Of a DNA stretch of 64,000 nucleotides, positions 9,216 through 28,801 are shown one piece after another. The translations under genes and the position numbers were made by a program. The stretch lies in assembly GCF_001426435.1 (NCBI RefSeq), contig NZ_LMER01000018.1:189-64188 (forward strand), written 5' to 3'. This DNA comes from Angustibacter sp. Root456 (GTDB taxonomy: Bacteria; Actinomycetota; Actinomycetes; Actinomycetales; Angustibacteraceae). Numbering within the stretch: the stretch's first letter is position 1; each line of letters begins with the position of its first letter. Under the pieces are notes generated by a model. It was given only the letters and a program-made list of their open reading frames with translations, did no database searches and was not told the origin of the DNA.

Positions 9216-15138
<5,923 letters not shown>

Positions 15139-15242: not shown

Positions 15243-16340
15243 TCAGGCCACGTGGTCCGGGGCCGACGCGGGCAGGGTAAATCGGAACTGCGCACCACCC
15301 GACGCCGCGCGACCGACCGTGATCCGCCCGCCGTGCGCCTCGACCAGACCGCGCACGAGGTAGAGCCCCAGCCCCGTCCCACCGCGGCGGCGGCCGTGCC
15401 AGAACCGGGTGAACACCCGCTGCAGGTCGGCCTCGTCGATGCCCTCACCCTCGTCGCTCACGCTGACGACCAGCACGGGCTCGGCCGCCGCGCCGGGAGT
15501 CAGCACCTCGGAGCCGGACATGAGGTCCAGCGTGACGGTGCCGTCGCCGTGGCGCACGGCGTTTTCGAGCAGGTTGGCGAGCACCTGCTCGATCCGGTCG
15601 GGGTCGGCCCACACCTCGGGCAGCTCGGTGTCGGCGTTGACCACGAACTGCCGGGCGTCGGTGCCGCTGGCCACCATGCGGTCGACGTAGCGACGGGCGG
15701 CCGACTCGACGTCGACGGGCTGGCGCCGCACCTCCAGCCGTCCGGCGTCGATGCGCGAGATGTCGAGCAGCTCGGTGATGAGCCGGGTGACGCGGTCGGC
15801 GTCGTGCTCGATCGTCTCGAGCATGAAGCGTTTCTGGTCGTCGGTGAACCGGTCCCAGCGGCGCAGCAGCGTCGCGGTGAACCCCTTGACCGACGTCAGC
15901 GGCGAGCGCAGCTCGTGCGCCACGGTCGAGATGAGGGCGCCGTCCTCCTCGTGGGTGCGGCGCCGGCTGATGGCGTCGCGCACGGACAGCACCACGCGGT
16001 CGACCGGCGCCAGGTGCCCGGGCCGGTGGTAGGTGGCGGTGACGAACAGCTCGATCGGCTGCTCCTTGCCGGGCAGCAGCAGCAGCCGCTCGCGGTGGCC
16101 GGTGCGGGTGGCCAGGCCGTTCCAGGGGTCGGTGCACGTCCACCAGCGCCGGCCCTGGGTGTCCTGCAGCGGCAGGACCTCGCGCACGTCGCGGCCGAGC
16201 AGGTCGTCGCGCTGGCGCTGCAGGATCCGCACGGCGGCGGAGTTGAGCTGGACGACCCGGGCCGCGCCGTCAGCCACGAGCACGCCGTCGGGCAGGTGCT
16301 CGATCCCCACCGGTGAGGTGTCAGGCTCCGGGGACATCAC
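15243..16340 (-). CDS. Soluble PAS-domain sensor histidine kinase
   Basis: The 365-aa product has a PAS-like sensor (about residues 12-125), a HisKA dimerisation domain with the phosphoacceptor His142 in TVAHELRSPLTS, and an HATPase_c domain with N box (NLLENAVRHGDG), G1 (DEGEGI) and G2 (GTGLGLYLVRG). No transmembrane segment is present, so it should sense a cytoplasmic signal. No response regulator is adjacent. It lies between the trmH-like gene and pheS. The start is either GTG 16340, overlapping the stop of a 12-codon upstream ORF (GTGA), or the ATG directly after it. Function and partner are unknown. Confidence 0.9.
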   Translation of the reverse strand: MMSPEPDTSPVGIEHLPDGVLVADGAARVVQLNSAAVRILQRQRDDLLGRDVREVLPLQDTQGRRWWTCTDPWNGLATRTGHRERLLLLPGKEQPIELFVTATYHRPGHLAPVDRVVLSVRDAISRRRTHEEDGALISTVAHELRSPLTSVKGFTATLLRRWDRFTDDQKRFMLETIEHDADRVTRLITELLDISRIDAGRLEVRRQPVDVESAARRYVDRMVASGTDARQFVVNADTELPEVWADPDRIEQVLANLLENAVRHGDGTVTLDLMSGSEVLTPGAAAEPVLVVSVSDEGEGIDEADLQRVFTRFWHGRRRGGTGLGLYLVRGLVEAHGGRITVGRAASGGAQFRFTLPASAPDHVA

Positions 16341-16375
16341 GCATCGCCTGCGGGTGCGAGCTGGTCCGCGAGCAT
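16337..16375 (-). CDS. 12-codon leaderless upstream ORF before the histidine kinase
   Basis: The minus strand reads TACAGT (16382-16387), six bases, then ATG (16373-16375), followed by 12 codons encoding MLADQLAPAGDA and a TGA that overlaps the kinase start codon (GTGATG). The spacing fits a leaderless transcript starting at the A of this ATG. The overlap would force ribosomes that finish the uORF to restart on the kinase. The peptide has no recognisable regulatory codon run. It could be chance, but promoter spacing and stop-start overlap agree. Confidence 0.45.
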   Translation of the reverse strand: MLADQLAPAGDA

Positions 16376-16381
16376 GAAGCG

Positions 16382-16387
16382 ACTGTA
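16382..16387 (-). promoter_or_regulatory. -10 element (TACAGT) of the kinase uORF
   Basis: TACAGT ends six bases before the uORF ATG. If used, the kinase-pheS-pheT part of the operon has its own promoter in addition to readthrough from infC. No good -35 is seen. Confidence 0.4.
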
Positions 16388-16418: not shown

Positions 16419-17438
16419 TCACGAGTCGGTCTCGCCGCCGGTCCTGCGGCCCCCCACGCCGTCCGCTGCGCGGGAGGTCGTACGGCGGGACCTCGACAGG
16501 GCGCGGGACGAGGCGTACAGGCACACCGTCGCGGCCATCGCGAGGTTGAGGCTCTCGGCGCGCCCACGCAGCGGGACGCGCACGACGGCGTCGGCGAGGG
16601 CGCGGGTCTGCTCGTCCAGGCCCCACGCCTCGTTGCCGAACAACCACGCGGTCGGCCGGCGCAGCAGCGCCTCGGGGTCGTGCTCGGCGTCGTCGAGCAG
16701 GTCGTCGAGGTCGTGGTCGCCGGCACCGTCCGCAGCGAGGACGACGACACCGCGGGCCCGCAGGCCGGCCACGACGTCAGCCAGCGCCGGGCCCTGGCAC
16801 ACCGGCAGGTGGAACAGGCTCCCCGCCGTCGACCGCACGACCTTGGGGTTGTGGACGTCGACGCTGGCCTCGGTGAACACCACGCCGCAGGCTCCGGCAG
16901 CATCCGCCGCGCGCAGCACGGTGCCGGCGTTGCCGGGGTCGCGCCCGTGCACCAGCACGGCGACGAGCGGCAGCGCGCCCGGCGCGTCTGCCGCCTCGAG
17001 CACCGCGTCGGGCACCGCGTCGGGCACCGCGTCGGGCACGAAGTCGAGCACGGCGTCGAGCACGACGTCGAGCGGATGGTCGACGGTGCGGCACACGGCC
17101 AGCAGGCCCTGCGGCGAGACGGTGTCGGTGAGCGCCGCCATCACCGGCTCACTGGCGCCGAGAGGCACGATCGCGGCCTCGCGGGCCGCGGCGACGACGT
17201 CGGGCCAGCGCTCCAGCGCGGCGGACGTGGCGTACAGCTCGTCGACGACGTCACCGGTCTGGGCGTGCGCGGCGACGGCCTCACGGACGGCTTGGGGTCC
17301 CTCGGCGAGGAACCGGCCGCCCCGATCACGACCGACGCGCCTGGCCAGCCGGTGCACGCGCTTGACCCGGTCGGCTCGAGGGTTGTCGAGCCAGACCTCC
17401 ACGCCGTCTCGTGTCGGATCGGCGGGGATGGGGGTCAT
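16419..17438 (-). CDS. TrmH/SpoU-family RNA 2'-O-methyltransferase
   Basis: SAM-dependent ribose methyltransferase of rRNA or tRNA. The 339-aa product has an N-terminal substrate-binding domain (VKRVHRLARRVGRDRGGRFLAEG, about residues 23-45) and a C-terminal SPOUT knot with the three motifs NAGTVLRAADAAG, FGNEAWGL and SLNLAMAATVCLY. Between them, about residues 120-147, is an odd VPDA/VLDA repeat encoded by 12-base tandem units around 17000-17074. Members next to infC-rpmI-rplT in actinomycetes are usually called 23S rRNA methyltransferases, but the target base cannot be read from sequence. Confidence 0.92.
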   Translation of the reverse strand: MTPIPADPTRDGVEVWLDNPRADRVKRVHRLARRVGRDRGGRFLAEGPQAVREAVAAHAQTGDVVDELYATSAALERWPDVVAAAREAAIVPLGASEPVMAALTDTVSPQGLLAVCRTVDHPLDVVLDAVLDFVPDAVPDAVPDAVLEAADAPGALPLVAVLVHGRDPGNAGTVLRAADAAGACGVVFTEASVDVHNPKVVRSTAGSLFHLPVCQGPALADVVAGLRARGVVVLAADGAGDHDLDDLLDDAEHDPEALLRRPTAWLFGNEAWGLDEQTRALADAVVRVPLRGRAESLNLAMAATVCLYASSRALSRSRRTTSRAADGVGGRRTGGETDS

Positions 17439-18953: not shown

Positions 18954-19154
18954 CAGGTGGTCCGTCAACCGCGGGGAGCGGGACGCCGGCGAACCGTCGT
19001 ACCGCTGCTCACGGACCGGCCCGAGGGCCGGCCGGACCGAGACCCGGCAGCCGCTAGGCCACTCGGGTGGGAGAGACTCCACTTGCGCACCAGACCTGCT
19101 GGCGACCCGGAGGCCGGCGACGGATCTGGTCGGTCAGTCTGCAAGGGTATCAGC

Positions 19155-27452: not shown

Positions 27453-28801
27453 GCGTCGCGCAGGCGCACCCGGACGGCGTCGCCGTGACCGGGCAGGTCC
27501 TCGGCGTTGGCGAGCGCGACCACGTGGTCGGCCACCTCGGCCAGGGCGGCGCGGTCGTACTCGACCACGTGGATGCCGCGGAGGAACGACTGCACCGACA
27601 GGCCGCTGGAGTGACGCGCGCAGCCGCCGGTGGGGAGCACGTGGTTGGATCCGGCGCAGTAGTCACCGAGCGAGACGGGCGCGAAGGCACCGACGAACAC
27701 CGCGCCGGCGTTGCGCACCCGCGCCGCCACGTCCGCGGCGTCACGGGTCTGGATCTCCAGGTGCTCGGCCGCGTAGGCGTCGCACACGGCCAGACCGGCC
27801 TGCACGTCGTCGACGAGCACGATGCCCGACTGCGAGCCGCCGAGGGCCTCGCGCACGCGCTCGGTGTGCTTGGTGGCCGCGACCTGCTGCTCGAGCTCGG
27901 CCTCGACGGCGTCAGCGAGCGCCGCGTCGGGGGTGACGAGCACGGACGCGGCGAGCGGGTCGTGCTCGGCCTGGCTGATCAGGTCGGCCGCGACGTGAGC
28001 GGGGTCGGCCGTGTCGTCGGCCAGCACGGCGATCTCGGTGGGACCCGCCTCGGAGTCGATGCCGATCACGCCCTTGAGCAGGCGCTTGGCCGCCACGACG
28101 TAGATGTTGCCCGGACCCGTCACCAGGTCGACGGGCTCGCACAGCACCTCGCCGTCCGGGCCCCCGTCGGGGCCGGTCTCCTTGGCGCCGTAGGCGAACA
28201 TCGCGACCGCCTGGGCTCCCCCGACGGCGTAGACCTCGTCGATGCCGAGCAGGGCGCAGGCGGCCAGCACGGTGGGGTGCGGCAGGCCGGCGAACCGCTC
28301 GGGGTTGTCGCGCTGGGGCGGGCTCGCGAGCGCGATCGACGGCACGCCCGCCTCTTGCGCCGGCACGGCGTTCATCACGACGCTGCTGGCGAGCACGGCG
28401 AGGCCGCCGGGGGCGTACAGACCGACTCGGCCCACCGGTACCCAGCGCTCGGTGACCCGGCCTCCCGGCACGACCTGCGTGACGACGTCGACGCGGCGCT
28501 GGTCGCGGTGCACTCGACGGGCGCGCTCGATCGACTCCTCCAGCGCCGCCCGCACCGCGGGGTCGAGCTCGTCGAGCGCGGCCTGCAGTGCTGGCGCGGG
28601 GACGCGCAGCTGGGTGGGGCGCACGCCGTCGAACCGCTCACCCAGGTCGCGCAGGGCCTGGGCGCCGCCATGGCGCACCTGCTCGCAGATCGGTCGCACG
28701 ACGTCGACAGCGGCCTCGACGTCGAACCCGGCCCGGGGCAGCACCTGGCGCAGCGTCGCGGCGTCGAGCCGGCGTCCGCGCAGGTCGGTACGTGCGATCA
28801 C
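27449..28801 (-). CDS. hisD: Histidinol dehydrogenase
   Basis: Zinc- and NAD-dependent double oxidation of histidinol to histidine; first gene of the his operon. The 450-aa product contains the family signature [15 protein letters not shown] and the [20 protein letters not shown] zinc-site region. GTG start at 28801 is set by the promoter: TAGACT ends exactly six bases upstream, so the mRNA is probably leaderless and begins with this GTG. Confidence 0.97.

Follow-up and report, generated by a model that had tools for sequence, protein, structure and literature searches.

The window, the whole 64,000-nucleotide stretch of the Angustibacter sp. Root456 genome that we analysed, carries on its minus strand a run of genes in the order infC, rpmI, rplT, a SpoU-family RNA 2'-O-methyltransferase gene, a histidine kinase gene, pheS and pheT. 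Pfam domain assignments placed the methyltransferase gene (PF00588, 16419..17438) upstream of the kinase gene (15243..16340) and pheS (PF01409 and PF02912, 14038..15132) downstream of it, all on the minus strand, confirming the neighbours that the initial annotation had named, an RNA methyltransferase and pheST. The kinase is a protein of 365 residues with PAS, HisKA and HATPase_c domains (Pfam), and its most hydrophobic 19-residue window averages just 1.1. In the absence of a membrane-type hydrophobic stretch we rejected a membrane-anchored kinase, in agreement with the earlier description of a soluble PAS kinase that has no membrane segment, and we likewise found no response regulator gene beside it, as had been claimed. 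Within the methyltransferase gene, a 12-bp tandem repeat of about seven copies (16991-17073) encodes VLDAVLD/VPDAVPD-type repeats ahead of the SpoU domain.

Reading the minus strand directly from 5' to 3' into the kinase gene, we found the hexamer TACAGT (16382..16387), which has the TANNNT form of a -10 element, followed by the six-base spacer CGCTTC (16381-16376) and an ATG at 16375 that opens a 12-codon upstream open reading frame (uORF; 16337..16375, TGA included) with the peptide MLADQLAPAGDA. Its codons are ATG CTC GCG GAC CAG CTC GCA CCC GCA GGC GAT GCG TGA. The uORF runs into the hexanucleotide GTGATG (16335..16340), where a GTG (16340-16338) and an ATG (16337-16335) are both in the kinase frame and the uORF TGA (16339-16337) overlaps the two, giving GTGA at 16340-16337. 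This is the arrangement that had been noted initially, from the spacing of the hexamer to the overlap of stop and start. The spoU stop codon of the window lies 31 nt upstream of the hexamer, and in alignments of the loci from relatives the spoU stop codon and the -10 hexamer of the kinase often overlap, a TAG or TAA stop supplying the first bases of TANNNT in many of them.

Streptomyces and other actinomycetes carry relatives of the kinase gene in the same position, flanked by spoU and pheS, and the window kinase shows 58-60% identity to the Streptomyces-type loci. As a PAS-HisKA-HATPase kinase encoded between these two genes, the window protein is, by gene order and similarity, the syntenic counterpart of Streptomyces OhkA (SCO1596). 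OhkA and OrrA form an orphan two-component system in Streptomyces coelicolor (SCO1596/SCO3008), in which the partner OrrA is unlinked (review, PMC9739842). The designation of the window protein as an orphan kinase was thus apt in that no regulator is adjacent, but a known counterpart exists. In the window's genome, a gene for a NarL-type regulator (L232:4626-5297, minus strand) lies directly after hpf and downstream of mtrB-lpqB, and its product shares 75% identity with the Streptomyces-type protein. We identified this gene as the OrrA counterpart by position and similarity, without a comparison to the S. coelicolor sequence. SCO3008 presumably occupies the same place in S. coelicolor, after hpf near mtrB, as its locus number close to that given for mtrB (SCO3012) in the review also suggests. 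Among 218 genomes of the order, the kinase was detected in 38 (E up to 1e-70), the regulator in 37 (E up to 1e-85) and both in 35, a co-occurrence that is inflated by relatedness among these genomes and that fits the two genes being kept or lost together. We regard the OrrA counterpart as the likely partner regulator of the kinase. The system resembles OhkA-OrrA in that the PAS kinase is encoded between spoU and pheST and the NarL-type regulator is unlinked, downstream of hpf near mtrAB-lpqB; unlike the Streptomyces-type kinase, which has a leader with a Shine-Dalgarno sequence, the window kinase is predicted to be translated by coupling to a leaderless start.

We collected orthologous loci across the class, 178 of them distinct, and compared their kinase starts. 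A TANNNT hexamer lies 5-8 nt before an in-frame ATG or GTG of the kinase in 81 of the 178 orthologs, with a spacing of 6-7 nt in 78 of those 81, whereas the same start motif at 6-7 nt spacing was absent from 86.4 kb of neighbouring spoU coding sequence from the same loci, which served as a control. Since the hexamer precedes the kinase's own in-frame start this often and never appears in the control, the usual state of an OhkA-type kinase locus in the order-level group appears to be a leaderless kinase mRNA that begins at its own start codon; in the order-level sample, the leaderless start is in frame in 27 of 38 genomes and out of frame in just 3. The hexamer-to-start arrangement of the window is accordingly one that also occurs at orthologous loci, which lends comparative support to the initial reading of TACAGT as the -10 element of a leaderless transcript, with a predicted transcription start at the A of the uORF ATG or the adjoining base. 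The comparison further suggests likely start codons for many OhkA-type kinases. The remaining orthologs comprise 68, Streptomyces-type loci among them, that scored as Shine-Dalgarno-led under a permissive four-base rule, 26 that were left unclassified and 3 with an out-of-frame leaderless ORF. An alignment of 80 leaderless loci revealed no conserved -35 element, a likeness to mycobacterial promoters, in which TANNNT is dominant and a -35 motif was not identified (PMC3898074).

Throughout the 64 kb window, the pattern TANNNT-N6/7-RTG occurs eight times on the two strands together. Seven of these matches begin ORFs that are 109-1180 codons long, and most of the seven are evident gene starts; the match at 16375 is the sole one to open a short ORF, the stop of which falls on a gene start. 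Elsewhere in the window, TATAGT-7-GTG at 11403 (minus strand) suggests a leaderless argC start 19 codons inside the longest ORF, which starts at 11460. In addition, a divergent gene pair at 28801 (minus strand) and 28887 (plus strand), both with TANNNT-6-GTG, is predicted to have a leaderless start on each strand, with 86 bp separating the two; by eye, the 450-codon minus-strand ORF of this pair looks like histidinol dehydrogenase.

Only three of the 178 distinct orthologs carry a uORF: the window species, its one compared congener (L002) and the unrelated locus L098 from another family. In the congener, TAGAGT is followed after seven bases by an ATG at the same place, which opens 14 codons ending in a TGA inside ATGA. 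The congener peptide, MPRRPALARPRGGR, is unrelated to that of the window and differs in length (14 versus 12 codons), and coupling has thus been kept between these two genomes, which make up our genus sample, while the peptide has diverged. Within the family the out-of-frame version is confined to these two, and a third member (G003/L004) has TAGAGT-6-ATG in the kinase frame. In all three out-of-frame cases the RTGA falls exactly on a kinase-frame start (GTGA in the window, ATGA in L002 and GTGA in L098). A single assembly error at the window locus is unlikely, because the congener carries a uORF of its own. The alignment of orthologous loci, proposed initially as a check on whether uORF length, frame and overlap are conserved, therefore showed the uORF to be missing from all the other loci, which refutes a conserved regulatory device; a lineage-specific one is possible.

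Although the initial annotation knew of no described system of this kind, the architecture has been reported. A class of coupled leaderless small ORFs, in which an RTGA links the small ORF to the gene that follows, was described in mycobacteria by Shell et al. (2015), with 23 of 220 in M. tuberculosis and with cases in which placement and coupling are conserved and the peptide is not (PMC4633059). Members of this class open with an RTG at the 5' terminus of the transcript; the window uORF shares with them a length within 5-50 codons and a TGA that forms RTGA with the next start, together with a coupling that persists in the congener as the peptide changes. Its transcript would start at the small-ORF RTG, judging from the TANNNT six bases upstream and the recurrence of this arrangement at orthologs, and on this predicted start the uORF fits the description of a coupled leaderless small ORF. 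It differs from the class of Shell et al. in that its transcript and its translation are predicted from sequence, the gene downstream encodes an OhkA-type kinase, and in relatives a leaderless start usually belongs to the kinase itself. The uPPE2-PPE2 pair of M. tuberculosis offers a second parallel, with an out-of-frame uORF, an RTGA overlap and a downstream gene that lacks a Shine-Dalgarno sequence; there, PPE2 expression from the uORF depends on the AUGA, with reinitiation at the overlap (PMC11260477). In contrast to uPPE2, which is Shine-Dalgarno-led and controlled by a B12 riboswitch, the window uORF is predicted to lack a leader, and we found no aptamer.

We consider it probable that ribosomes initiate leaderlessly on the uORF and then pass by termination and reinitiation at the RTGA onto the kinase, in an arrangement that arose through an indel. 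According to this proposal, the OhkA-type kinase gene would have its own -10-driven promoter directly after spoU, and in the window's genus the leaderless ATG would lie out of the kinase frame and open an ORF 12-14 codons long. Initiation by a 70S ribosome would take place at the 5'-terminal AUG. After 12 codons the ribosome would reach the TGA, which lies within GTGA (within ATGA in the congener), terminate there and reinitiate, either by stepping one base back to the kinase GTG or at the ATG next to it. The role of the uORF would be to supply the kinase start with ribosomes, and its peptide sequence would be irrelevant; the idea of a short ORF with such a delivery role is stated in a review (PMC12548453). 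The uORF itself would most likely stem from a small indel in a dispensable N-terminal extension of the kinase, with the overlap kept by selection, as it would preserve kinase synthesis. The initial suggestion that kinase translation depends on the uORF is consistent with the architecture, in which the stop overlaps the start and the window kinase start has no Shine-Dalgarno sequence (best duplex just -2.9 kcal/mol). This start also lies in predicted structure, with a mean pairing of 0.75, compared with 0.39 at the more open 5' end. In the congener, the dependence is possibly weaker because a fair Shine-Dalgarno sequence, AGGGGUGG (-9.4 kcal/mol), precedes the kinase start by 11 nt, and the congener kinase may need the uORF less, or not at all.

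Evidence on the origin of such uORFs, a point that goes beyond the work of Shell et al. (2015), came from the unrelated locus L098 (genome G147). Here TAGCCT is followed after six bases by an ATG and a 24-codon ORF that ends in a GTGA on the kinase start. The peptide of this ORF, MSEVRGDAGTAVEVSS, matches the kinase N-terminus MCEVRGDSDAAVAASP of its congener L096, and its frame is coding-like, with a GC3 of 0.96 compared to 0.68 in the kinase frame. Together, the peptide match and the coding-like GC3 point to the L098 uORF being a former kinase N-terminus that was shifted out of frame, either through a recent frameshift or, as is possible for one draft genome, through an assembly error. A frameshifted former start is also the most likely origin of the uORFs in the window's genus, as judged from position and not from homology, since the two uORF peptides could not be aligned to the kinase N-extensions of relatives and the GC3 of the window uORF frame, 0.73, is not clearly coding-like. 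Two unrelated lineages thus show a leaderless start that is out of frame and RTGA-coupled, once with clear homology between uORF and N-terminus, and this provides a simple and testable account of how one class of uORFs, the coupled leaderless small ORFs with unconserved peptides, could arise. As another source of the uORF we considered an inserted mobile repeat, given that MIRU units have been reported as coupling at start codons; this candidate was rejected, as no other complete copy of the 101-bp region occurs in the genome, where its short matches reach at most about 27 bases.

We also simulated one-base changes in the kinase N-extensions. Deletions gave an RTGA overlap at 6.7% of positions, and among those that met a stop before the PAS domain, 270 of 733 (37%) yielded an RTGA that overlapped a start codon in the kinase frame, indicating that the overlap is not rare after such a deletion; insertions in the same extensions produced none. 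The stop-start overlap is by itself weaker evidence against chance than the hexamer arrangement. These frequencies bear on the reading in which the 5' ATG is incidental. Under this reading the predicted transcription start holds, but the kinase would be initiated on its own account from the 35-nt leader, or else be made from operon read-through, leaving the short ORF as a neutral by-product. We judge this unlikely, though it deserves weight: the simulated deletions would yield the overlap often enough, the congener has its Shine-Dalgarno sequence, and more than a third of the orthologs scored as Shine-Dalgarno-led, but the window has only a poor match of this kind and the RTGA overlap is present in every one of the out-of-frame cases.

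Recoding, in which ribosomes would change frame near the uORF stop and yield an N-terminally extended kinase, has a precedent in a reported frameshifted uORF-PPE2 fusion (PMC11260477), and N-extensions of comparable length occur at this position in relatives. We nevertheless consider it very unlikely here, as a slippery site was not evident when the region was read by eye and the kinase-frame sequence upstream of the GTG, LQSLHARGPARTRRRC, is not coding-like (GC3 0.60).

The initial annotation had also proposed that the uORF senses tRNA or ribosome state and so sets the kinase level, as attenuators do. The adjoining pheST and methyltransferase genes would suit such a role, and cysteine-rich leaderless uORFs in mycobacteria act as attenuators (Canestrari 2020, as cited in PMC9094748); like them, the window uORF is a short ORF, predicted to be leaderless, that precedes a gene. 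Unlike them, it has no residue run, conserved peptide or sign of attenuation. Read as a peptide, the uORF contains no Phe codon, its length is not conserved in the congener, and no terminator-like hairpin or site was found at the uORF, which therefore has neither the run of regulatory codons nor the terminator/antiterminator hairpin of an attenuator leader peptide. Given in addition the rarity of the uORF among orthologs, the sensing proposal lacks support; we rejected tRNA/Phe attenuation and regard a regulatory sensor in general as extremely improbable. A riboswitch or other known RNA family was likewise rejected, since Rfam returned no curated family at or near the uORF; its one sub-threshold match in the window lies elsewhere (19035-19135).

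Returning to coupled reinitiation after a small indel, a broader and more speculative extension, which we hold to be doubtful, is that the conversion of a leaderless start into a coupled uORF is a recurrent route, kept because only ribosomes that have loaded on the kinase's own leaderless mRNA would then synthesize the kinase, so that OhkA output would respond to conditions that change leaderless initiation or ribosome recycling. Separately, two kinase orthologs, L187 (G462) and L194 (G267), contain an internal stop (TAG and TGA, respectively) in the six-frame match and may be pseudogenes or reflect sequencing errors.
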